Positions 2,378-27,148 of a DNA stretch of 42,941 bases are shown here, piece by piece. Source of the DNA: a virus; the IMG/VR virus record IMGVR_UViG_3300032893_000116, positions 1 through 42,941 of that record; one strand, written 5' to 3'. How positions within the stretch are numbered: position 1 is the stretch's first letter; each line of letters starts with the position of its first letter. Under the pieces are notes generated by a model, which saw only the letters and a list, made by a program, of their open reading frames with translations, did no database searches and was not told the DNA's origin. A program made the translations under genes and the position numbers.

Positions 2378-2393
2378 GGGTTTTTGGTTATAG

Positions 2394-2410
2394 CCCCTCG
2401 GAGCGAGGGG
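2394..2410. other. Stem-loop between the regulator gene and the DUF6948-like gene
   Basis: Perfect 7-bp inverted repeat (CCCCTCG / CGAGGGG) with a GAG loop in the 42-bp gap. There is no T-run on the minus-strand 3' side, so it is not a typical terminator. It may act as an attenuator or a stability hairpin. Confidence 0.5.
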
Positions 2411-2419
2411 AAAGGGGTT

Positions 2420-2569
2420 TCATGCGGCATCCTTTTCCAGCAATTCCTTCACCGCTTTTTCTACCAGCCTGACTTCTGGCACGAGGCTTGCTTGAGCGTG
2501 CTTGCGGAGTTTTTCCGCGATCCCGGCATCCATCCGGTAGCTTTTCTGTTTCGACTTCTTTTTCCGCAT
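2420..2569 (-). CDS. Small ribbon-helix-helix-like DNA-binding regulator
   Basis: From the ATG at 2569 the product is 49 aa: a lysine-rich start (MRKKKSKQ), a short strand 'KSYRMDAGIAEKLRKHA', then 'PEVRLVEKAVKELLEKDAA'. This is the length and layout of a CopG/Arc-type ribbon-helix-helix protein that dimerises on a palindromic operator. An in-frame ATG at 2623 would add 18 residues. I prefer 2569 because an extended -10 box (2579-2584) and a 14-bp palindrome (2582-2595) lie immediately upstream, which would be inside the gene with the longer start. It is the first gene of the early minus-strand run, so autoregulation of that run is likely. The assignment rests on size and pattern, not on a diagnostic motif. 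Confidence 0.6.
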   Translation of the reverse strand: MRKKKSKQKSYRMDAGIAEKLRKHAQASLVPEVRLVEKAVKELLEKDAA

Positions 2570-2578
2570 GACGTGACT

Positions 2579-2605
2579 GGTATAGCAAATGCTATCATCC
2601 GTCAA
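2579..2605 (-). promoter_or_regulatory. Putative early promoter (minus strand), nearly leaderless
   Basis: On the minus strand: -35 TTGACG (2605-2600), a 15-bp spacer, and an extended -10 TGC-TATACC (-10 box 2584-2579). The predicted transcription start falls about 3 nt before the regulator ATG at 2569, so the message would be almost leaderless. The spacer is shorter than ideal, partly offset by the extended -10. Confidence 0.5.
2582..2595. promoter_or_regulatory. Palindromic operator candidate overlapping the early -10 box
   Basis: ATAGCA-AA-TGCTAT is a perfect inverted repeat with 6-bp arms. It overlaps the -10 box of the early promoter and lies 13 bp before the regulator gene, the usual position of a self-repression site. 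It differs from the inverted repeats at the plus-strand promoters, so a different protein probably binds it. Confidence 0.55.
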
Positions 2606-2623
2606 ATTTTTTTTGTTTACCAT

Positions 2624-2645
2624 TTTTGCTCTGGCAAAAGCAAAA
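2624..2645. promoter_or_regulatory. Inverted repeat upstream of the early promoter
   Basis: TTTTGCT (2624-2630) and AGCAAAA (2639-2645) are exact reverse complements separated by 8 nt, about 20 bp upstream of the early -35 box. The arms share the TGCT/AGCA core with the 2582-2595 palindrome, so it may be a second, weaker site. The rest of 2646-2778 is A+T-rich intergenic DNA between the divergent promoters with no gene visible. Confidence 0.35.
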
Positions 2646-2778
2646 TACGGTAAATCCGGCCGCCCTCATGAATTTCCCGATTTTTCTCCGCGCGCTCCGA
2701 TGATGTGATTGATATACAATGCACGAAACCCGCGTAAACATTGGCCCAAACCGATGTAAAAATAGTTGAAGATATTTG

Positions 2779-2806
2779 TGGACATCATACGCGAAAAGCG
2801 TATAGT
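2779..2806 (+). promoter_or_regulatory. Plus-strand promoter P1 with overlapping 17-bp inverted repeat
   Basis: -35 TGGACA (2779-2784), 16-bp spacer, -10 TATAGT (2801-2806). The inverted repeat ATACGC-GAAAA-GCGTAT (2787-2803) covers the spacer and half of the -10 box. The same arrangement, with the repeat starting 14 bp before the -10, occurs at the second promoter (4191-4218). Transcription would start near 2813 and run through a long structured leader before the first gene at 3108. Confidence 0.6.
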
Positions 2807-3107
2807 GGTTGCGTCGGAAGGAAAAGGGTTGAAGGGAACCCGAAGCCAACCGGCGGTGAGGTCAACCTTGAGCGACTCACCTAAATCTCTCGACTCGATG
2901 TGCTCGCACACTGCGAGAGCCGGATGTGGAACCGGCCCGGGAGCGCAACACAATGCGCAAACCCGGAGGAGCAGTGAACCTGTGCGGGGTAATGCAGCCC
3001 GGAACGCAAACGCGCTCCGGCCGGTCCCAAGCCCGGGAAAATGCAGAGGGGGAAAGCCCGAGAGGGCGGAAACCCGCCCGGGCTTCGGCCCGGGCACGAA
3101 AGGAAAA
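2807..3107 (+). ncRNA. Long, highly structured 5' leader or small RNA
   Basis: This 300-nt stretch between promoter P1 and the first plus-strand gene has no convincing coding frame but consecutive perfect stems: 2807-2811/2847-2851 enclosing 2826-2830/2837-2841; 2855-2860/2876-2881; 2887-2892/2914-2919; 2919-2923/2932-2936. It ends with GCCC(GAGA)GGGC at 3056-3067 and a C(UUCG)G hairpin at 3076-3095. Two forward frames happen to be open, as expected for GC-rich DNA, and their products look random. It could be a regulatory leader, an antitermination element or an independent RNA. I match it to no known RNA family. Confidence 0.5.
3076..3095 (+). repeat. Tetraloop leader hairpin, copy 1
   Basis: Perfect 8-bp stem GCCCGGGC/GCCCGGGC closed by a C(UUCG)G tetraloop, one of the most stable RNA hairpins. 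It is followed at once by 'acgaaaggaaaaatg', which holds the ribosome binding site and start codon of the next gene. No T-run follows, so it is not an intrinsic terminator. Related copies: 3485-3504, 4514-4533, 4850-4869 and a variant at 5079-5092. Confidence 0.9.
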
Positions 3108-3458
3108 ATGAAAACCATCCAGATTAATCACCACGGAGAGGGAAGCAGCACGACGGCCATGGTGGCCGTTGATGCCATCCGCGAAAACGGATGGCGGGGC
3201 GAAATGGAGGGCGGCGTCTCAGTGTGGGCGCAGACGGCGGAGCCCCTCGAGATAATCGAGGGGTGGCGCCACACGCTCCTGCCGGCCGGGACCACGGTGT
3301 ACCTCGGCAACGATGGGACCGTTTTGGTCCCGCGCGAGCAGGGCGGGATGTGGATTCGGAAGACCGAATCCGTGCGGCCGGTCGCCGGGTTGTTGCGGGT
3401 CAGTGCCCGGCGTCCGAGCCTGGACAGCCTGGACATTTGTCTGGTAGCGGCGAGGTAA
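3108..3458 (+). CDS. Hypothetical 116-aa protein, first gene of the plus-strand block
   Basis: The ATG at 3108 has a clear AAAGGA site 5 nt upstream, directly after the copy-1 tetraloop hairpin. The frame stays open upstream, but that part is the structured leader. The product is soluble, with a strand-like middle (residues 45-90, 'EPLEIIEGWRHTLLPAGTTVYLGNDGTVLVP') that suggests a small beta domain; the C-terminal 25 residues are basic. No family recognised. It is the first protein of a cluster of small genes controlled by promoter P1. Its role is unknown; by position it could be a regulator or an anti-host factor, which is speculation. Confidence 0.7.
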   Translation: MKTIQINHHGEGSSTTAMVAVDAIRENGWRGEMEGGVSVWAQTAEPLEIIEGWRHTLLPAGTTVYLGNDGTVLVPREQGGMWIRKTESVRPVAGLLRVSARRPSLDSLDICLVAAR

Positions 3459-3484
3459 ATCCAGCCAACCGCAAACCCAAACCC

Positions 3485-3504
3485 GCCCGGGCTTCGGCCC
3501 GGGC
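3485..3504 (+). repeat. Tetraloop leader hairpin, copy 2
   Basis: Identical to copy 1 over the hairpin and its downstream flank up to and including the start codon. The whole stretch 'aacccgcccgggcttcggcc' onward through 'aaaaatgaaa' is shared, so the leader and the binding site move as one unit. Confidence 0.9.
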
Positions 3505-3516
3505 ACGAAAGGAAAA

Positions 3517-3708
3517 ATGAAATACCAAGTCCACGCATCAATGGCGACCGTCACGGTCGAGGCCGCAAATCCGGTCTTTGCGGCCGAAATTGCGGAGCCC
3601 AAGCTTCGCGAAATTCTCACCGCTCACATCGATGAGCAACCGGCCGAAATGACGGTCGAAGGCCCGGACGGCCGGGAGACCGTCTTCTCCTTCGGGGGTG
3701 GGCTGTGA
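3517..3708 (+). CDS. Small 63-aa hypothetical protein
   Basis: The ATG at 3517 follows the copy-2 leader with an AAAGGA site. The product begins MKYQVHASMATVTVEA and contains 'DGRETVFSFGGG' at its end; the alternating hydrophobic pattern suggests a small beta or alpha-beta domain. Residues 16-35 look helical. No known family. It overlaps the next gene by 4 bp (GTGA), so the two are translationally coupled, and with the following two genes it forms one cluster ending in an XRE repressor. Confidence 0.75.
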   Translation: MKYQVHASMATVTVEAANPVFAAEIAEPKLREILTAHIDEQPAEMTVEGPDGRETVFSFGGGL

Positions 3709-3926
3709 CCATCCCCGTTCAAACCGAGCTCGTCCTGTCCGAGCAGGACAGGGCGGTCATCCTCCACGCGCTTCGGGTTGCGGAGCGGCTATGCAATCTC
3801 ACCGATCTTGTAATGGAGACGCTCGCACAGCGGGCTCCCCATTTGCTCCCGGAATTCAGCCCGGATGTCAAGGCGGCAATGGGAGCACGGGCGGCTGTCG
3901 AAGCTGCAATCGGGAGGATCATTTGA
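3705..3926 (+). CDS. Small partner protein of the first XRE repressor
   Basis: The start is the GTG at 3705 inside the stop of the preceding gene (GTGA overlap). The 73-aa product begins MTIPVQTELVLSEQDRAVILHALRVAE and ends AAIGRII. The same frame of conserved residues (MTI...S..D..ILRALR...AIRRII) is found in the C-terminal half of the 5111-5554 gene, which also precedes an XRE gene. Both end with the same string GGAGGATCATTTGAA that supplies the binding site and TTGA overlap for the repressor. It is therefore probably one half of a duplicated two-gene regulatory unit, perhaps a partner or antagonist of the repressor. Function not known. Confidence 0.75.
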   Translation: MTIPVQTELVLSEQDRAVILHALRVAERLCNLTDLVMETLAQRAPHLLPEFSPDVKAAMGARAAVEAAIGRII

Positions 3927-4141
3927 ACATCGCCCGTCAGCTCAAAGCCCTTCGGGCGCGCGCCGGGCTGTCCCAGGCTGGCGCAGCCCGGCGGCTCTCC
4001 GTGTCCGTGCGGACATTGCAAGGGTGGGAATTGGGGAACGGCCCCACGGAGTTCACGGGGCGGACTGTGCTCGAAATGGCTGAGGATTGGCCACCAGCGC
4101 GGCCTGAGACGCGTCCAAAACGCCGGAGAGGGTCAGCATAG
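3923..4141 (+). CDS. XRE-family helix-turn-helix repressor, copy 1
   Basis: The start is the TTG at 3923, fixed by a GGAGG site at 3913-3917 and the TTGA overlap with the upstream gene. The 72-aa product is one helix-turn-helix domain: 'LKALRARAGLSQAGAARRLSVSVRTLQGWE' shows the classic Ser-Gln turn and recognition helix of Cro/CI-like proteins, followed by 'PTEF' and a basic tail. It lacks any protease-sensitive or dimerisation domain, so it is closer to Cro or small XRE regulators than to full-length CI. A paralogue lies at 5551-5799. Candidate targets are the 17-bp inverted repeats at 2787-2803 and 4199-4215. Confidence 0.88.
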   Translation: MNIARQLKALRARAGLSQAGAARRLSVSVRTLQGWELGNGPTEFTGRTVLEMAEDWPPARPETRPKRRRGSA

Positions 4142-4190
4142 CAGACGCAAGCCCGGGCCTCTCAGCTCGAGTACGTGCCTGAGCCGGACC

Positions 4191-4218
4191 TTGCAAACAT
4201 ACCCCAATGAGGTATAGT
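4191..4218 (+). promoter_or_regulatory. Plus-strand promoter P2 with overlapping 17-bp inverted repeat
   Basis: -35 TTGCAA (4191-4196), 16-bp spacer, -10 TATAGT (4213-4218). The inverted repeat ATACC-CCAATGA-GGTAT (4199-4215) starts 14 bp before the -10, exactly as at promoter P1, and the surrounding CATAC...GTATAGT string is shared. The predicted transcription start coincides with the ATG at 4225, so the first message is leaderless. Confidence 0.6.
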
Positions 4219-4224
4219 CAAACC

Positions 4225-4398
4225 ATGAAAGAGAACATGAATATGAACGCGACGGAGGCGGCGGCGGCGACGGAGGCGGCGGCGGCGCGGGTTGCCGCGG
4301 GAGATGTCTCCCACCAGCGACATGCGGATGCGGATCTCCCAGACCCGTGGGAGGGATGCAGTCCGGAGCGGCACGCGTGGATCGCCCCTGAACTGTGA
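4225..4398 (+). CDS. Small Ala/Glu-rich 57-aa protein, probably leaderless
   Basis: The ATG at 4225 lies 6 nt after the -10 box of promoter P2 and has no Shine-Dalgarno, so translation would start from the 5' end of a leaderless message. An ATG at 4207 is inside the promoter and unlikely. The product has an alanine-rich helix at residues 10-27 (TEAAAATEAAAARVAAG) encoded by a short GC-rich repeat, then an acidic, Pro- and Trp-containing tail (DADLPDPWEGC). No family recognised. It is followed by a long hairpin element (4403-4489). Confidence 0.5.
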   Translation: MKENMNMNATEAAAATEAAAARVAAGDVSHQRHADADLPDPWEGCSPERHAWIAPEL

Positions 4399-4402
4399 CT
4401 TT

Positions 4403-4489
4403 TGAGTGGGGACGGTGAAAGGCCGGCGCGGGTAACCGGGTAGCGCGATAACCCCGGCCAGACGCAGTGGATAGAATCCTCCCCACTCA
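4403..4489 (+). ncRNA. Long nested hairpin element
   Basis: The outer 9-bp arms TGAGTGGGG (4403-4411) and CCCCACTCA (4481-4489) enclose a second 6-bp stem GGCCGG (4421-4426)/CCGGCC (4454-4459) and a third CGCG (4427-4430)/CGCG (4444-4447). Together they form an 87-nt elongated structure in the 168-bp gap between two genes. It may be a processed RNA, a transcription attenuator or an mRNA-stabilising element. Confidence 0.45.
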
Positions 4490-4513
4490 CAGATTTCCCC
4501 ACAACCCCAACCC

Positions 4514-4555
4514 GGCCGGGCTTCGGCCCGGCCAAAATAAAAAGCCCGAGAGGGC
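4514..4555 (+). repeat. Tetraloop leader hairpin, copy 3, with a second GAGA hairpin
   Basis: GGCCGGGC(UUCG)GCCCGGCC at 4514-4533 differs from copies 1 and 2 at stem position 2 (C to G), with the partner base changed to match (G to C), a compensatory change that argues for selection on the RNA stem. A second hairpin GCCC(GAGA)GGGC at 4544-4555 also occurs at 3056-3067 in the leader. The binding site of the next gene follows. Confidence 0.85.
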
Positions 4556-4566
4556 GGAAAGGAAGA

Positions 4567-4842
4567 ATGCAAATTGATCAATTAGGTTCTGCGGCCGCAG
4601 AAGCGGCTCAATCCGGCCAGGTGGTCGTCGAGTTCGGGGGTGGGCATTGGTGCTCATTCCCTCCCGGCGGTCAGCCGGAGCGAGCCTATTGGGCAACTGC
4701 CCTGGCAAGGAGCCAGTGGCAACGTCGGGCGGACGACCTCGCCGCCATTGGACGGCTGGATGTCGGGCAGTCGCATCGGGCTGTCCGGGGTTATCACCCA
4801 CGGCACGGCGAGTCGTTCGCGACGGTGACGCGGGTTGCCTAA
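4567..4842 (+). CDS. Hypothetical 91-aa protein
   Basis: The ATG at 4567 is preceded by GGAAAGGAAGA. The product has an acidic/alanine-rich start, a glycine stretch 'VVVEFGGGHWCSF' near residues 19-31, and a Trp/Arg-rich middle; the end is basic. No membrane segment and no known family. It sits between copies 3 and 4 of the tetraloop leader, so it has its own translation signal although it is probably on the same transcript as its neighbours. Confidence 0.65.
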   Translation: MQIDQLGSAAAEAAQSGQVVVEFGGGHWCSFPPGGQPERAYWATALARSQWQRRADDLAAIGRLDVGQSHRAVRGYHPRHGESFATVTRVA

Positions 4843-4849
4843 TCCCCCC

Positions 4850-4869
4850 GCCCGGGCTTCGGCCCGGGC
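4850..4869 (+). repeat. Tetraloop leader hairpin, copy 4
   Basis: GCCCGGGC(UUCG)GCCCGGGC followed by 'aacgaaaggaaaatatg'; same layout as copies 1 and 2 with one inserted base after the stem. Confidence 0.9.
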
Positions 4870-4883
4870 AACGAAAGGAAAAT

Positions 4884-5060
4884 ATGAAACAGAATCAAAT
4901 CAAAGTTTACGAAATGGGCGACGCCGAAATTCAAGCGGTATTCGCGAAAGCGGAAGCGGCCGGATATTCTTCCGGGTTGGCTTTCGTCAACGAGATGAAT
5001 CTCTGGGACGCGACTCGCGATGAAGTCCTCGCGATTCTTGAAGCTCCCGTCCAAGGTTAA
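4884..5060 (+). CDS. Small 58-aa hypothetical protein
   Basis: The ATG at 4884 has an AAAGGA site directly after the copy-4 leader. The product begins MKQNQIKVYEMGDAEIQAVF and contains two likely helices (residues 11-28 and 38-52). It is acidic overall and soluble, the size of many phage anti-host or regulatory proteins, but no family is recognised. The frame is open further upstream only as a shadow of the previous gene. Confidence 0.7.
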   Translation: MKQNQIKVYEMGDAEIQAVFAKAEAAGYSSGLAFVNEMNLWDATRDEVLAILEAPVQG

Positions 5061-5078
5061 CGCCACAACCCAAACCCA

Positions 5079-5092
5079 GCCGGGCAACCGGC
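5079..5092 (+). repeat. Leader hairpin variant with GNRA loop
   Basis: GCCGG(GCAA)CCGGC stands where the C(UUCG)G hairpin stands in front of the other genes, flanked by 'caaaccca' and 'cccacaacccaaaggaaaaatg'. The tetraloop class has changed (GNRA instead of UUCG) while position and binding site are kept. Confidence 0.7.
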
Positions 5093-5110
5093 CCACAACC
5101 CAAAGGAAAA

Positions 5111-5554
5111 ATGAAAACCATTCATACGCCGGAACCGTGGCACAAAGGCGAATCGCCCGACGCATACTTGGGTGCCTGGGTTGTACGGGGCAAGCGAGAT
5201 GGGGCGGGCTGCACAAGCCCCATCGTTTGCAACGTCAGTACGCCCATGGATCAGGAGCGCATTGTCTCATGCGTCAATGCCTGCGCGGGCATGGCGGACC
5301 CGGCGGCCGAAATGAAAGCGTTGCGCGCCGCAACAAGAAAGGGGAAATCAATGACCATTGAAATCAGGCAGGACTCGATTGAAATCTCCCGGGAGGACCA
5401 GGAGATCATCCTCCGCGCGCTCCGGCAATCGGAGTCCAAGCTAGAAGCAGAGGAGGCTGTCCGAGCGAGCGATTACCGAAACGCGGGCCTCCCTGCACCC
5501 GTCGAAAATTGCGCGCTCTGGCTGGTGCGGGACGCGATCAGGAGGATCATTTGA
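5111..5554 (+). CDS. Two-part protein: 'HTPEPW' phage domain joined to XRE-partner domain
   Basis: From the ATG at 5111 (AAAGGA site) the frame gives 147 aa. Residues 1-80 start MKTIHTPEPWHKGE and contain 'ERIVSCVNACAGM', a pattern I know from many short phage proteins of unknown role. Residues 81-147 start MTIEIRQDSIEISREDQEII and end DAIRRII, matching the separate partner gene at 3705-3926. An ATG at 5351 with GGGGAAATCA upstream could start the second half alone. So this is either a fusion made by loss of a stop codon or a gene with an internal start. It overlaps the second XRE repressor by 4 bp. Confidence 0.75.
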   Translation: MKTIHTPEPWHKGESPDAYLGAWVVRGKRDGAGCTSPIVCNVSTPMDQERIVSCVNACAGMADPAAEMKALRAATRKGKSMTIEIRQDSIEISREDQEIILRALRQSESKLEAEEAVRASDYRNAGLPAPVENCALWLVRDAIRRII

Positions 5555-5799
5555 AATTCTCCACCGAGCTGGTCCGGCTGCGCAAGGCCGCCGGGCTCTC
5601 CCAGTCCCAAGCCGCAGCCCGGCTCGGGGTGCCAGTCCGAACGCTCCAGAAATGGGAGCAGGGCGAGCGCGAGCCGACGGAATTCGTGATGGGGAATGTC
5701 TGTCAACTGGTTGGTATGGTTTCAAGAGTCCCCGCCCGGGCCTCCGGCGGGAGGCACAGGGCACAGCACGGAGGCGGCGCCACCGGGCGGGGAAATTAG
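5551..5799 (+). CDS. XRE-family helix-turn-helix repressor, copy 2
   Basis: The start is the TTG at 5551, set by GGAGG (5541-5545) and the TTGA overlap, identical in layout to copy 1. The helix-turn-helix reads 'LVRLRKAAGLSQSQAAARLGVPVRTLQKWE', followed by 'PTEF' as in copy 1. The C-terminal ~30 residues are Arg/Gly-rich and include a degenerate copy of the GC-rich leader sequence (about 5728-5748), so the ancestral gene may have ended earlier. It is the last gene of the plus-strand block; its stop overlaps that of the converging late operon. Confidence 0.85.
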   Translation: MKFSTELVRLRKAAGLSQSQAAARLGVPVRTLQKWEQGEREPTEFVMGNVCQLVGMVSRVPARASGGRHRAQHGGGATGRGN

Positions 5800-5894
5800 T
5801 GCACCAGTACCATCGCCAGCCAGGCGAACCAGATGACCACCAGGAAACCTCCCAGCCAGTCAATCGGTGCCCGTGGTGCGCGCTCAGTGTCCAC
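5796..5894 (-). CDS. Tiny single-pass membrane protein, 32 aa
   Basis: A GTG at 5894 overlaps the stop of the lipoprotein gene, giving a 32-aa product with a polar start (MDTERAPRAPID) and a membrane helix WLGGFLVVIWFAWLAMVLV up to the C-terminus. It is the last gene of the late operon and overlaps the converging XRE gene by 4 bp. Small size, membrane helix and position beside holin-like genes suggest a lysis accessory protein. Too short for certainty; translation would depend on coupling because there is no binding site. Confidence 0.4.
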   Translation of the reverse strand: MDTERAPRAPIDWLGGFLVVIWFAWLAMVLVH

Positions 5895-6306
5895 CGGCGT
5901 TCGTGCCGACGTTTAGGAGCGGCGTGGAGACGCTCCCGGGCAGCCCGAATGCTTTCAGCGCCCCATTCGCGCCCATCTGGCCCAGGAGCAGCCCGAAGTT
6001 GAAAGCCTGCGCTTGTTGAATCTGCTGGCCGGAATATCCAGCGTTCACGACGTTCGGGTCGTTCAACGAGTTTAACCCCTCGAGGCTCACCGTCACATTG
6101 CCATTCGTATCCCGCGTCACCTTGAGCGCGGAAATGCTCTCATTCTTCGGGAGCGTCAGGTCAACCGTGCCCTTGGCCTGATCCCATTTGATCCGGCTCG
6201 ATGGGACAGCCTGATTACCTGTCGCGCACCCGGCGCATAACGCCAGAGCCGCGATCGCGCCTAGGTTCACCACCATCCCCCATGTTACCAGTAACTTGAA
6301 TTTCAT
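5884..6306 (-). CDS. Putative lipoprotein, late operon
   Basis: The ATG at 6306 has a strong GGAGG site. The 140-aa product starts with a hydrophobic signal ending 'LALCAGC', a lipobox-like sequence with acylated Cys expected at residue 27, followed by a Gly/Asn/Gln-rich exported domain. Residues 75-140 are rich in Asn and Gly ('SLNDPNVVNAGYSGQQ'). It lies between holin-like membrane genes and the end of the late operon. A lipoprotein beside membrane proteins recalls outer-membrane spanins, but it is longer than usual Rz1 proteins and has no proline-rich tail, so a superinfection-exclusion or envelope role is also possible. Confidence 0.65.
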   Translation of the reverse strand: MKFKLLVTWGMVVNLGAIAALALCAGCATGNQAVPSSRIKWDQAKGTVDLTLPKNESISALKVTRDTNGNVTVSLEGLNSLNDPNVVNAGYSGQQIQQAQAFNFGLLLGQMGANGALKAFGLPGSVSTPLLNVGTNAGGH

Positions 6307-7145: not shown

Positions 7146-7508
7146 TCAGTAAAATCTCAATCTTGGGTGCGTGGGAATCGTCACAGCCCCTTCGTTGGAC
7201 GGCAAACTTTCAAAGCCGTTCGTGTTCACGGCCGTAACGACGAAGAAGTAGGTCTGCCCCACGGCGAGCCCGCTGAGAGTGATGTTCGTTGCGGCCCCGG
7301 TGTTCGTGCTTTGGAAGCCCGGCGCTGGCACGACTACCGGATTGGTCCCGATATAGAAGCTGTTCGTGGACCAGTATAGAATATAACCGGCCACTCCGGA
7401 GTAGCTGTCCATGTCCCAGGAGAGCCGCACTGTCGGAGCGTAGGGGATCGGAGGCCACGCGAACACCGCGCAGCCAGCAAGCATGAGGGTGAGAAGGAGT
7501 TTTTTCAT
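7146..7508 (-). CDS. Secreted fibronectin type III-like protein
   Basis: The ATG at 7508 overlaps the esterase stop (ATGA). The 120-aa product has a signal peptide MKKLLLTLMLAGCAVFAWPP, possibly a lipoprotein (Cys at residue 13), then one fibronectin-III-like domain: 'VRLSWDMDSYSGVAGYILYW' and 'LAVGQTYFFVVTAVNTNGFES' show the conserved Trp, Tyr and Leu positions. Such small secreted FN3 proteins are typical of Verrucomicrobiota and their phages. It closes a run of signal-peptide genes behind the tail fibres. It may decorate fibres or the host surface; there is no direct evidence. Confidence 0.75.
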   Translation of the reverse strand: MKKLLLTLMLAGCAVFAWPPIPYAPTVRLSWDMDSYSGVAGYILYWSTNSFYIGTNPVVVPAPGFQSTNTGAATNITLSGLAVGQTYFFVVTAVNTNGFESLPSNEGAVTIPTHPRLRFY

Positions 7509-23006: not shown

Positions 23007-25390
23007 TGCTTTGCTCCTTCGGCCATGCCGTTTATAAGTGCGGCGGAAATCGTTCCTTCCAATGCCCGGGCGGCGGCCGGGTCGGCCATGATGTCTTTTT
23101 GCATCTGCGGGAAATCGGTCAAAAACTCGTGCAGCTTTTTCTTGAGCAAGGCCGGGTCGGAGATGCCCATGATGGCCTTGAGGCGTTCGCGGGCTGGCCC
23201 GAGGTCATCAGCAAGGGCCTTGGCAAATAGCTCGCGCCCCTTGGCCTCCAGCGTGACGAATTGGCCTTTCTCGTGGCGTGGTTGGAAAGCGGAGTGGTGG
23301 CGGGCATTTTCAATCTTTTCAGAGCGGTTTTTGTGCGGCGGATACTTTGTGCCAGATCCCCTCACATGGCTTAAATACGCGCCCTCAGCGTCCAGAATTG
23401 TTTGCTCGCCTCCGAATACGCTGTCTATTTGTTTCGATGACATTCGGCGGAAGTCCAGTGTTCCGTCTTTCCGTCGAGGTAAATCGCTGATGGCCCGTCT
23501 AGCATTATCGTGGGCCATGATGGCGCTGAGCCGTAACTGGTATGCGGTTTCGCTTTCTCCTGGTTCGCGCTCACGGCTTGTTTGGGCAATCCTAACCGGG
23601 AATGGCGGCCGGATGGTGTCGTATTTTCCATGCTTATCCTCGTATTTGACATGAGCCATTCCCATCGGCCCTTTGGTTTCCGGTTCCTGACTTTCGGATG
23701 AAAGCGCGTGGGACTTCTTTGGTTTCGTGTCGCTGGATTTGCTTTCGCCAGTCCAATCTTTGCTTATCCCAATGAACACCGGATGATCGTCAATCGTCAC
23801 CCAACCATCGCGATTCTCAACGTCATCTTTGGCCTGGCTGGTGTCTTTCGGCTGGCCCGGCTTTGAAGGCTCCCCCGGCTTCCCCACCATCGGCACGGGC
23901 TCGGGCTTGTCCTCGAGGGTGTAGCCTGTGCGCTCCCCGATTTCCTCCGCGTCAACCTTGAGCCCGGCCCCGGAAAGCGCTGTCACCTGGGCGCAAATGG
24001 CGTCAACGTCCGACTCCTCCGCAAATTGCCAATAAGCCAGAACCGGCTGCCCGGGGAAATTGTCAGCCAGGAATTGCCGGTCGAACTGGACGTTAAACAC
24101 TCCTGCGATGCGCTTGCCGTGAGCTTTGGCGATTTGCTGGAATGTGTCCTCATGCGCCCCGCCGGCCAGCGTGCCACTCCCGGACTCGGTGAGCATCGTA
24201 AGCTTGCCGCCCGTGCCGATCAGAATCAGTTGCTCGTCCAGGTATTTCAGGTAGGGCGTGAATGGGTCAGTCCCGCGCGGGCTGTCGTTGGGCGTGTAGG
24301 CGCTGCCGAAGGGAATGGCACCACTGCCACCCTCTGCCACACTCTTGGCCGCCTGCTCCCACTGAGCCTTGCCCTGCGGGTCTTGGGGAGCGTTCTGGGC
24401 CATCGTGATCACGCCGCTGGGGATGCCATAGATTTCGATGAATCCGGCCCAATCCTTCACGGCCAGATTTTTTCTGAGGAAAATCAGGAGGGCAATCCAG
24501 TCAATGTGTCTATGATTTTCGGCAATCAGGAAATTCTGCGGGTCGATAATCAGGTTGTCGGGCAGGGACTCGAAGCCGCACAAGCGGGAATCCGGGTTGT
24601 ATTTCCACAGGCCCCGGTAGCCGTCTCGGACGATATTCCATTGCATCACCGGCTCAAGATGAGGCGCATTGCGATCTCCCTGAATTTCGACATGAGCGAA
24701 GCCGCGGAAAACAGAGGTGGCCAGATGCTCAATGGCCCCACCTTCGCCTGTGAGATTGTCCATATTGTCATAGACTCCTCGCAGAGCAGAGGCTTGCTCA
24801 TCAGCAAGGGTTTCATCGAATTCGGGATGATCGTCGGCAATGCGGATGTCCCAATCCATTTCCGCAATCGCGTCCAGGCGCCGGCCCATCAGAGCCATGA
24901 GGGTGTCGTGGTTCTGCTCCAGGTAGGAATACATCCATTCCAGGTCCGCGAACCAGCCGCGGCGGAAAAATTCCATCATGCTGATCGCACGCTGGATATT
25001 GAGATGCCTGAACGGGTTGTAAAAATCCCTCCACCGATTGGCCCGGGCAACGATTAGTTGCGGGCTCGAAGGCATCATCCGCGTTCCGGCCGCTGGCCCG
25101 TAGGGGCTTCGCTCTTGGAATGGAGGCTGGAATTGCGCCATCTGGCCGGCGGCAACTTCGGCAATGGGCATCGGCGTCTTGCGCTCCGTCTCAGGCGAGA
25201 TCAGGGGCAGCGCATCGGGCACCATGGCGGGCTGCGTCTTGGGCGTGAGCGATTCCAGTTGGGAGATTTGATCACGAGAGGCATCCTGTCGCCCCGGGGG
25301 CATCCCTGCGCGCTCAGCAGCACCGGCAAGGCTGGCTTGCATGGCCGAGACTGTCTCGGCTTCCTTGGGGCTTTGGCGCGCGCGTTTCAT
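23003..25390 (-). CDS. Portal protein (Mu gp29/DUF935-like) with large insertion
   Basis: The ATG at 25390 overlaps the TerL stop. The 795-aa product is longer than typical Mu gp29-like portals (about 510 aa). Residues ~100-495 carry the portal core ('SPQLIVARANRWRDFYNPFR', 'WMYSYLEQNHDTLMALMGRR', 'TLAGGAHEDTFQQIAKAHGK'). Residues ~525-712 are an insertion starting 'RDGWVTIDDHPVFIG' and ending 'PRHEKGQF'; the rest (715-795) is the usual C-terminal helical region. The portal channels DNA and binds terminase; the insertion probably decorates it or is delivered with DNA. It shares a start motif with the insertion in the protease. Confidence 0.8.
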   Translation of the reverse strand: MKRARQSPKEAETVSAMQASLAGAAERAGMPPGRQDASRDQISQLESLTPKTQPAMVPDALPLISPETERKTPMPIAEVAAGQMAQFQPPFQERSPYGPAAGTRMMPSSPQLIVARANRWRDFYNPFRHLNIQRAISMMEFFRRGWFADLEWMYSYLEQNHDTLMALMGRRLDAIAEMDWDIRIADDHPEFDETLADEQASALRGVYDNMDNLTGEGGAIEHLATSVFRGFAHVEIQGDRNAPHLEPVMQWNIVRDGYRGLWKYNPDSRLCGFESLPDNLIIDPQNFLIAENHRHIDWIALLIFLRKNLAVKDWAGFIEIYGIPSGVITMAQNAPQDPQGKAQWEQAAKSVAEGGSGAIPFGSAYTPNDSPRGTDPFTPYLKYLDEQLILIGTGGKLTMLTESGSGTLAGGAHEDTFQQIAKAHGKRIAGVFNVQFDRQFLADNFPGQPVLAYWQFAEESDVDAICAQVTALSGAGLKVDAEEIGERTGYTLEDKPEPVPMVGKPGEPSKPGQPKDTSQAKDDVENRDGWVTIDDHPVFIGISKDWTGESKSSDTKPKKSHALSSESQEPETKGPMGMAHVKYEDKHGKYDTIRPPFPVRIAQTSREREPGESETAYQLRLSAIMAHDNARRAISDLPRRKDGTLDFRRMSSKQIDSVFGGEQTILDAEGAYLSHVRGSGTKYPPHKNRSEKIENARHHSAFQPRHEKGQFVTLEAKGRELFAKALADDLGPARERLKAIMGISDPALLKKKLHEFLTDFPQMQKDIMADPAAARALEGTISAALINGMAEGAKQ

Positions 25391-26772
25391 GCGTCAATCT
25401 CCCGGCTGCGCCGGCCAGCCAGCACTTCAATGCGCCTCGAGGGGAACACGATGGGAGCCATGTCTGGCCCGGGTGCGAGCGCACGCATGGCGCCGGAGGC
25501 AGCGTCGATTTGGTCATCGTGGTCGCCAAGCGGGAATACTTCGGCCTCGTCCAGAAAAGCCGCATTCCATGGGCCTTTGACCAGCTTGAAGTTTCCAGCC
25601 TGAGCCGCGCTGCTCATGGCCTGAGCCCGGACGATCTTGTTGACCTCGGGCTTTTCGGCCATGAAATCCCGGCCCACCATGCAACCGCGGCGGTAGTGGT
25701 CAATCAGGTGCACTCCACTCGCGCCCGGCTCCTGCTCCATTCGGATCATCACGCCCCAGCCGTCAAGTTCCTTCGTCTGCGAAATCAAATGCTCTATGGC
25801 CAGCGGGGACTCCTGACAATGCCGCATATCCTTGAGAAACCAGATTCCCTCCGGGGACAGCCCGAGCAACGCGCCGGCGGTAAAGTCAGGATCGTGTCCA
25901 GCCCTGGGCTTGGTTGCGGCCAAATCCCAGTAGCGGCACCATCGGCATTCGCTGGGAGCCTGGTCAACCGGGTCGCCGAACCAGTCCCTCCTGAACATGC
26001 TGCCCTCTGCCACGGACCAATCCCCGTTGAGCAGTCGGGCGCGGGTGACCGGATCAAGCGTGTCGAGGGAGTGAATATATTCCGCTTTGTCTAGGCTTGG
26101 ATTATCGTCCAATCTTGCCGGAATGAACCATCTGCCGTTGGCCCTGCCGTTCTCAATGAACCTTTCTTTAACCCACCGATGCCCGATTCCGCCCGGGTTG
26201 GACGCGGCCCGCATCCTGATTGGGATTTTGCAATCGGCAGACCGCCGCATTCGAGAAAACAGGTAGCGGTAGTCTTTTTCCCGAAATTGCGTCAACTCAT
26301 CCCATCCGACGAAATGGAAATTGCCGCCCTGATATTGGTAAATGTCATTTTCCGTGTCGCAATAACCGAATTTCAGGACAGCACCGCTCGGAAATGTCCA
26401 GGAATGGTCCTGACTTGACCAGCGGGCCTTGCCTTCAATCCATTCATGCCCGAGTTCGATCAGCGCCCCGGGTTGCTTGAGGTCTTGGAACGTGCGGCGC
26501 AACAGCAGTGCCCGATATTCCGGGTAGGCAACGTATTGCAGCGCCGCCATGAGCAACGCTGCGCTTTTGCCGCCGCCAGCGGCGCCGCCGTAAAGGACCT
26601 CACGAACCGGAGTCAAGGCCAGGAAGGCGGCTTGGGTCGGATGGGGCTGGTGCGGGATGAACGGGTTTTCCGTCACCGTCTCCCTCAGCACCGCCCACAA
26701 AACGCTCCAGTCTTCCTCGGACAGCTTCGGTGTCGAGCGGGGGCTTTGGTTGAATTGTGATAGGGCTACCAT
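25387..26772 (-). CDS. terL: Terminase large subunit
   Basis: The 461-aa product has Walker A 'LYGGAAGGGKSAALLM', Walker B 'FVGWDELTQF', the coupling 'SNPGG' and nuclease motifs 'YWDLAAT' and 'GDHDDQIDAASGA' (paired Asp). It is the packaging ATPase/nuclease that feeds DNA through the portal. The ATG at 26772 would make it overlap TerS by 173 bp; later GTG codons near 26690 keep the conserved 'ENPFIPHQPHPTQAAFL' start and shorten the overlap. No Shine-Dalgarno at 26772. The start is therefore uncertain, the identity is not. Confidence 0.9.
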   Translation of the reverse strand: MVALSQFNQSPRSTPKLSEEDWSVLWAVLRETVTENPFIPHQPHPTQAAFLALTPVREVLYGGAAGGGKSAALLMAALQYVAYPEYRALLLRRTFQDLKQPGALIELGHEWIEGKARWSSQDHSWTFPSGAVLKFGYCDTENDIYQYQGGNFHFVGWDELTQFREKDYRYLFSRMRRSADCKIPIRMRAASNPGGIGHRWVKERFIENGRANGRWFIPARLDDNPSLDKAEYIHSLDTLDPVTRARLLNGDWSVAEGSMFRRDWFGDPVDQAPSECRWCRYWDLAATKPRAGHDPDFTAGALLGLSPEGIWFLKDMRHCQESPLAIEHLISQTKELDGWGVMIRMEQEPGASGVHLIDHYRRGCMVGRDFMAEKPEVNKIVRAQAMSSAAQAGNFKLVKGPWNAAFLDEAEVFPLGDHDDQIDAASGAMRALAPGPDMAPIVFPSRRIEVLAGRRSREIDA

Positions 26773-27148
26773 TTGGACCAGAGATTTCAGTGCGGACGGG
26801 AGCTTTGAGCCCAAGCAAATCGTCAAGGGCTTGGCGGGCGCGGACGCGATCCCCAAGGCGAGAATTAGGATCGAGGCACATGCGCCGGTAAAACGCGGCA
26901 GACTCAGCAGCGCATTCCTTTCTGTCCCCTGCGATTTCGCGGGCAAATTCCCTCCGCGCCCGAGCAATAAAGTTGTCCGCGGTTTTCCAATGTCCCCCGA
27001 ATTTCTCCTTGAAAGCCTTATGAATTTCCGAGCGAGTTGAGCCCGGCAGTATTTCCATGACAAACAAAAGCCGCTCCTGCTGGCTCGCAAAATCGTGCGA
27101 AAGTTCAGCTTTTTTCTTGGGCTTTTTTGGAGCGCGCTCTTCATTCAT
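26600..27148 (-). CDS. terS: Terminase small subunit
   Basis: The ATG at 27148 is the first gene after the late promoter. The 182-aa product has a basic start, an N-terminal helical DNA-binding region ('RSEIHKAFKEKFGGHWKTAD', 'FIARARREFAREIAG') and the string 'RTEISGPNGSPITIQPKPPL' near residues 117-136, common in small terminases of Mu-like and related phages. The C-terminal 40 residues are read out of frame with TerL over the shared stretch. It recognises the packaging site and recruits TerL. Confidence 0.75.
   Translation of the reverse strand: MNEERAPKKPKKKAELSHDFASQQERLLFVMEILPGSTRSEIHKAFKEKFGGHWKTADNFIARARREFAREIAGDRKECAAESAAFYRRMCLDPNSRLGDRVRARQALDDLLGLKAPVRTEISGPNGSPITIQPKPPLDTEAVRGRLERFVGGAEGDGDGKPVHPAPAPSDPSRLPGLDSGS

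Follow-up and report, generated by a model that had tools for sequence, protein, structure and literature searches.

Why would a virus place almost the same RNA hairpin ahead of several small genes whose products do not resemble each other? The question is raised by a complete viral record of 42,941 bases with a 127-base-pair (bp) direct terminal repeat (IMGVR_UViG_3300032893_000116; this whole stretch of DNA is referred to as the window), in which five small genes of the only sizeable plus-strand block, at about 2780-5800, carry hairpins closed by UUCG or GNRA tetraloops close to their ribosome-binding sites (RBS). The answer that we favour, and to which we give about even chances on the evidence of the sequence, is that the messages of this block are punctuated by RNA structure: a ribozyme would trim the first of two transcription units, and the hairpins would cap and separate the cistrons against decay.

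Tetraloop leaders in the block and in other viruses

A first-pass annotation of the sequence had described four 8-bp hairpins closed by C(UUCG)G and a fifth one with a GCAA loop, and this description was confirmed. All five are predicted to fold as described, and the plus strand between 2600 and 5850 holds four C(UUCG)G hairpins of at least 8 bp, compared with none in 500 dinucleotide shuffles, which argues against chance. Copies 1 (3076..3095) and 2 (3485..3504), both with the composition GCCCGGGC-UUCG-GCCCGGGC, are followed 12 nucleotides (nt) on by the AUG at 3108 and 3517, respectively. Copy 4 (4850..4869) has the same two arms, begins 7 nt past the stop of the preceding gene E and lies 14 nt from the AUG at 4884. 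In copy 3 (4514..4533; GGCCGGGC-UUCG-GCCCGGCC, also 8 bp), pair 2 is compensated and the AUG at 4567 follows 33 nt on. Copy 5 (5079..5092) is a 5-bp stem with a GCAA loop (GCCGG-GCAA-CCGGC), located 18 nt from the AUG at 5111 and embedded in flanks homologous to those of the other leaders. The 8-bp UUCG hairpins are confined to the plus-strand block, and none was found ahead of the minus-strand genes.

The hairpins had also been placed directly upstream of the RBS. This is the case everywhere except at copy 3, where a plus-strand hairpin of another type (GCCC-GAGA-GGGC, with a GNRA loop) intervenes at 4544..4555, 11 nt from the AUG at 4567, and occupies the usual place of the UUCG hairpin beside the Shine-Dalgarno sequence. 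The same GAGA hairpin is found on the plus strand at 3056..3067, within a 20-nt element (3053-3072) that precedes copy 1 and is identical to 4541-4560. With both loop types considered, a UUCG or GNRA tetraloop hairpin ends 11-18 nt ahead of the AUG in five of the five leaders.

Copies 1 and 2 share 44 identical nt, and the copies are therefore, to judge from their sequence, duplicates and not independent observations. The flanks of the leaders are homologous, with an A/C-rich stretch on the 5′ side and AAAGGA on the 3′ side, and the proteins encoded behind them are unlike each other. Given that similar leaders precede dissimilar genes, the leader reads as a copied cassette, a module of its own. 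Regarding the neighbouring genes, copy 1 stands at the head of the block, copies 2 to 4 lie between a stop (3458, 4398 in a doubtful open reading frame (ORF), and 4842, respectively) and the next Shine-Dalgarno sequence, and copy 5 is placed in the same way after the stop at 5060. No hairpin is present at 3705, 3923, and 5551, where the start overlaps the stop of the gene before by 4 nt.

The base-pair change of copy 3 had been presented as covariation demonstrating that the RNA stem matters. The change from C-G to G-C at pair 2 is genuine, but it amounts to one two-sided change among four distinct rows, and covariation in the window cannot alone show that the stem matters because 248 of 500 shuffles reach the same change. 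In other viral contigs, a hairpin core located 2-30 nt before a Shine-Dalgarno sequence and ATG was found in at least 120 contigs with a shorter version of the core and in 40 contigs with a longer one, and these hairpins follow a stop codon in nearly all cases. In the longer-core set, the next outer pair was complementary in all 35 distinct cases (GC in 17, CG in 15, and TA, AT, and GT in one each), compared with 48% when partners were shuffled. In the shorter-core set, pairs 1-3 beyond the core exceeded every shuffle among the matches listed. Furthermore, the UUCG loop lies on the message strand in 40 contigs vs 3 for the mirror image, which is the same DNA dyad with the loop CGAA. This bias points to selection at the RNA level, because a DNA dyad is indifferent to orientation and an RNA tetraloop is not. 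Altogether, the covarying outer pairs and the orientation bias support selection on RNA pairing for the hairpin class in viral contigs, the window alone giving no significant signal, and in this way the RNA-level function suggested by the first-pass annotation gained support.

A covariance model built from the five copies (R1), as that annotation had proposed, recovered all five in the window; its matches elsewhere were only isolated hairpins or pairs, in contigs that the pattern scans had already selected. The exact leader (CCGGGCTTCGGCCCGG with a nearby AAAGGAA) was sought in 2.9 million viral contigs and was not found outside the window. Many viral contigs (L033-L152) display the order stop, short gap, GGGGCTTCGGCCCC, AAAGGAG, and ATG ahead of recurring genes, and in one phage contig (L181) two successive genes are each led by an identical 20-mer.

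A twister-like element and a two-unit block

A candidate self-cleaving ribozyme resembling twister-P1 (RF03160) was located upstream of copy 1, on the plus strand at 2986..3054, ending 21 nt before the first UUCG hairpin. The covariance-model match spans the full model, with E values of 2.5e-11 for the region and 3.3e-10 for the whole window that vary with search size, down to 7.9e-14. It was seen only in a permissive search, an Rfam search at the gathering cut-off returning nothing, and the same model gave no matches in 14 control genomes. Stems P2, P3, and P4 and the conserved L1/L4 letters are present (UGCA/UGCA, CCG/CGG, GCCGGUCCCAAGCCCGG, and GAGGG), and the P2, P4, and L1/L4 nucleotides for both twister pseudoknots are in place. 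The predicted cut, U2990|A2991, lies in a UAA context. An unusual GAAAA joint of the element recurs, within 31 identical nt, in an above-cut-off twister of a Subdoligranulum plasmid. As far as the covariance model can tell, the element is twister-like, not a certified twister, and cleavage probably takes place at U2990|A2991. The earlier suggestion that the hairpins are processing sites does not suit the 8-bp hairpins themselves and fits better with this element just upstream. Typical RNase III cutting needs a stem longer than 8 bp, and RNase III sites were dismissed, as the stems are only 8 bp long.

Most of the further viral and plasmid twisters that were read out are immediately followed by an RBS and a small gene. 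The Subdoligranulum plasmid record (L169, OY725880.1) contains twister-like elements at 2974-3035 and 5277-5339, 2.3 kilobases (kb) apart, one of them above the cut-off, and a viral contig (L222) holds twister and twister-sister ribozymes within 2.4 kb (2812-2874 and 5163-5234), both above the gathering score. The minus strand of IMGVR_UViG_3300035211_000099 (L224) carries three twister-like elements, at record positions 6174, 31369, and 38242, and has two near-identical leaders in which a twister is followed by a GGGGGA-GAAA-UCCCCC hairpin, at least one of them directly before an RBS.

The whole leader before copy 1 (2780-3070) is more stable than its shuffles (z −3.1), and the twister-like match explains only its 3′ third. 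A group II intron had been considered for 3020-3050 and was abandoned once the twister model matched. The region 4380-4505, upstream of copy 3, was tried as a second structured RNA and rejected, being no stabler than shuffles (z 0.14) and having no match in Rfam or to known ribozymes. The region could form a long stem (TGAGTGGGGA / TCCCCACTCA) that encloses a GCGC/GCGC match resembling a pseudoknot.

Most genes of the window are on the minus strand, including those for terminase, portal, major capsid protein, DnaB helicase, and RecT, and the plus-strand block contains small genes without known family and two helix-turn-helix (HTH) genes. Within 2380-5900 only two promoter-like sites were found, both on the plus strand with an N16 spacer and TATAGT as −10 element: TGGACA-N16-TATAGT at 2779..2806, whose spacer and −10 are overlapped by the dyad CATACGCGAAAAGCGTATAGT, and TTGCAA-N16-TATAGT at 4191..4218, with the dyad CATACCCCAATGAGGTATAGT. 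The dyad CATAC-N9-GTATAGT occurs in exactly two exact copies in the whole window, both at these putative promoters, and the HTH proteins of the block may bind the CATAC-N9-GTATAG part shared by them.

Downstream of the first site, gene A (3108..3458, 116 amino acids (aa)) and gene B (3517..3708, 63 aa) have no family match. Gene C (3705..3926, 73 aa) overlaps gene B by 4 nt, and gene D (3923..4141, HTH of Xre type) overlaps gene C by 4 nt, neither having a hairpin leader. Downstream of the second site, a doubtful ORF of 57 aa (4225..4398) begins approximately at the expected transcription start of the −10 site (4213-4218). An exact 18-nt tandem repeat, GCGACGGAGGCGGCGGCG, is found inside it at 4249-4284. 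It is followed by gene E (4567..4842, 91 aa) and gene F (4884..5060, 58 aa), both without family match, by gene G (5111..5554), and by the Xre-type HTH gene I (5551..5799), which has a 4-nt overlap with it and no hairpin leader. The open frame of gene G has 147 aa, and its final 67 aa, from an ATG at 5351 with its own RBS, form a paralogue of gene C (E 6e-5, over a short stretch only). Genes D and I are paralogues as well (E 1e-12). All of them are on the plus strand. Since two similar promoters share a dyad and the gene pairs are duplicated, the block appears to be made of two parallel units, each with a promoter, a long leader, hairpin-led small genes, and a coupled gene pair of which the second is an HTH gene.

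No relatives of gene A, gene G, a 993-aa minus-strand protein, the block DNA, or the major capsid protein were found when sought in phages. Relatives of the terminase large subunit were remote (54% at best, in partial contigs), and none carries such hairpins before an RBS. For this protein (25387-27144), the best matches among deposited phages are the Methanobacterium phages psiM2 and psiM100 (47%). The stretch 1355-2106 is of low complexity, with PATATA, SRSRS, and GYGYG repeats in three overlapping frames and one minus-strand ORF of 241 aa.

Possible roles of the leaders

In the explanation based on RNA punctuation, transcription of unit 1 would begin near 2813, as deduced from the −10 site, and the twister-like ribozyme would cut the leader at U2990|A2991, generating a message with a 5′-OH end. 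The trimmed message would start with a compact structure, followed by the GAGA and UUCG hairpins and by gene A. Cistrons without translational coupling would start with the cassette, consisting of the A/C-rich stretch, a stable tetraloop hairpin (UUCG, GCAA, or GAGA), and an open AAAGGA Shine-Dalgarno sequence, and the hairpins at these uncoupled starts would bar nucleases entering from either side, working in the RNA as barriers in the manner of the T4 intercistronic CUUCGG hairpins. Stabilisation of the messages is most likely the effect of the hairpins, and among the functions listed in the first-pass annotation that of a 5′-end stabiliser seems the likeliest. A bolder version, rather doubtful in our view, is a natural ribozyme-plus-hairpin insulator, in which the twister trims unit 1 and the copied tetraloop cassettes make each cistron independent, protected, and swappable without retuning. 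The duplicated twister and GAAA-hairpin leader of the unrelated contig L224 suggests that phages may have reached such an arrangement more than once.

Several observations weigh against RNA punctuation. The starts at 4225 and 5351 also lack such a hairpin, indicating that genes of the block can manage without it, and other phages yielded no homologous block, which leaves conservation of the block itself unsupported. In addition, the twister-like match scores 56.5 bits, below the Rfam gathering score of 67.2 bits, and stem P1 adjoining the cut is not formed (GGGG vs GGAA). By eye, P1 could form as a split pairing with either CCCG (3057-3060) or CCCGC (3073-3077), and P1 has been reported to be dispensable for twister cleavage (PMC5408937). 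Finally, replacement of the hairpins by shuffled sequence produced no clear change in the predicted openness of the Shine-Dalgarno sequence, leaving an RBS-exposing role unsupported.

This last result bears on an alternative that we regard as unlikely, although it survives better than the others, in which the hairpin beside the Shine-Dalgarno sequence tunes initiation, by ribosome docking or by blocking read-through or coupling, and the genes are translated independently. Such a role would be consistent with the near-fixed distance that separates hairpin and AUG in each of the five leaders, the GAGA hairpin filling the near place if the UUCG hairpin is farther away, and with the restriction of the hairpins to uncoupled starts. 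The Shine-Dalgarno sequence is indeed predicted to be open in four of the five leaders (0.66-0.80 unpaired), compared with a mean of 0.47 at minus-strand starts. However, this openness is given by the A/G-rich flank and is about equal with shuffled hairpins, the fractions of shuffles at least as open as the native sequence being 0.34, 0.37, 0.75, 0.12, and 0.03. Stabilisation is preferred over a role in translation because shuffling the hairpins left the predicted openness unchanged, which is a weak test.

It is improbable that the hairpins are bound by an RNA-binding protein, of the phage or of the host, that controls the whole block. Near-identical hairpins repeated ahead of non-homologous genes recall translational operators, but the loop varies (UUCG, GCAA, GAGA) in a way that preserves stability rather than a single ligand, and unrelated phages carry the same hairpin. 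No RNA-binding family was found in the block either, and its two HTH proteins are more likely to bind the promoter dyads mentioned above.

Weak or partial termination, by hairpins that lack a U-run or that act on minus-strand antisense transcription, appears highly improbable. The T4 genome contains 21 UUCG hairpins, six with a T-run after them and six preceding an RBS-like site, and a T-run follows the UUCG hairpin in 67 of 120 viral contigs, among the matches listed. About half of these contigs (L033-L152) have a T-run, so there seems to be a gradual transition between the terminator and leader functions. In the window, two copies were flagged as terminator-like on the minus strand, but the tails on that strand read GGGTTTGGGTTT, with no U-tract, and a terminator scan found no T-run after any copy on the plus strand, in agreement with the first-pass view that the hairpins are not terminators. 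Furthermore, an operon with a terminator ahead of each of its genes would silence itself.

DNA-level dyads, as operators or as recombination boundaries for small-gene exchange with an incidental RNA hairpin, are the least probable. In their favour, like leaders before differing genes are what boundary sequences should give, and Cluster K phages carry ESAS repeats that are regarded as DNA sites (PMC3203893). Against them, UUCG is strongly biased to the message strand, the loops are RNA-stabilising tetraloops, and their position follows the Shine-Dalgarno sequence instead of promoters. By-product recombination at the leaders is possible.

UUCG hairpins between phage cistrons were first noticed in T4, and to our knowledge no role has been proven for them since. 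In the window, five near-isogenic leaders that between them show several loop types and a compensated pair stand before different genes, with a likely self-cleaving RNA alongside, a set that lets the stabilisation, translation, and protein-binding models be separated in one small construct.

Comparison with known systems

In phage T4, C(UUCG)G hairpins between cistrons were reportedly described by Tuerk and colleagues in 1988. The hairpins of the window share their sequence features, four copies on the message strand having a stable stem that ends in a C-G pair and a UUCG loop. In both cases very stable CUUCGG hairpins lie between the stop of one gene and the next Shine-Dalgarno sequence, several per genome, some in T4 being near terminators. 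T4 stems vary by place, whereas here one cassette serves five starts within 2 kb, some leaders have GNRA loops, and a T-run is found in none. On sequence grounds, the intercistronic CUUCGG hairpin is a known phage habit, as in T4, and what appears to be new is the repetition of one cassette whose tetraloops are mixed, together with its ties to a ribozyme-like element and duplicated units.

The Start-Associated Sequences (SAS) and Extended SAS (ESAS) of Cluster K mycobacteriophages are also comparable. SAS are short one-orientation repeats just before the ATG of small non-structural genes that belong to unrelated families; an inverted repeat lies upstream of roughly half of them, and for the ESAS inverted repeats RNA pairing found no support (PMC3203893). 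Here too a one-orientation repeat stands ahead of the ATG of non-structural genes, but the hairpin class of the window supports RNA pairing, and the SAS consensus (GGGATAGGAGCCC) includes the Shine-Dalgarno sequence. This consensus is absent from the starts of the block, with one match with two mismatches at 7444, far from it.

With regard to type-P1 twisters (RF03160), the element of the window resembles them in its full-length match, the arrangement P2-P3-P4, the L1/L4 letters, the UAA, and its location before an RBS and a small gene, like several viral twisters; it differs in its score below the gathering cut-off, in the lack of an adjacent P1, and in the GAGA and UUCG hairpins that follow.

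A parallel in the order of parts is RiboJ, a ribozyme plus hairpin placed before the RBS that raises message level (PMC6206723). Both have the order self-cleaving ribozyme, hairpin, RBS, and gene, and the leader of unit 1 would be a natural analogue of this engineered insulator. RiboJ is synthetic and based on a hammerhead (sTRSV), whereas the element of the window is natural and twister-like, with predicted cleavage only. If the insulator interpretation is true, the ribozyme-hairpin-RBS insulator of synthetic biology would have a natural counterpart, and genes could be exchanged behind the leaders without retuning.

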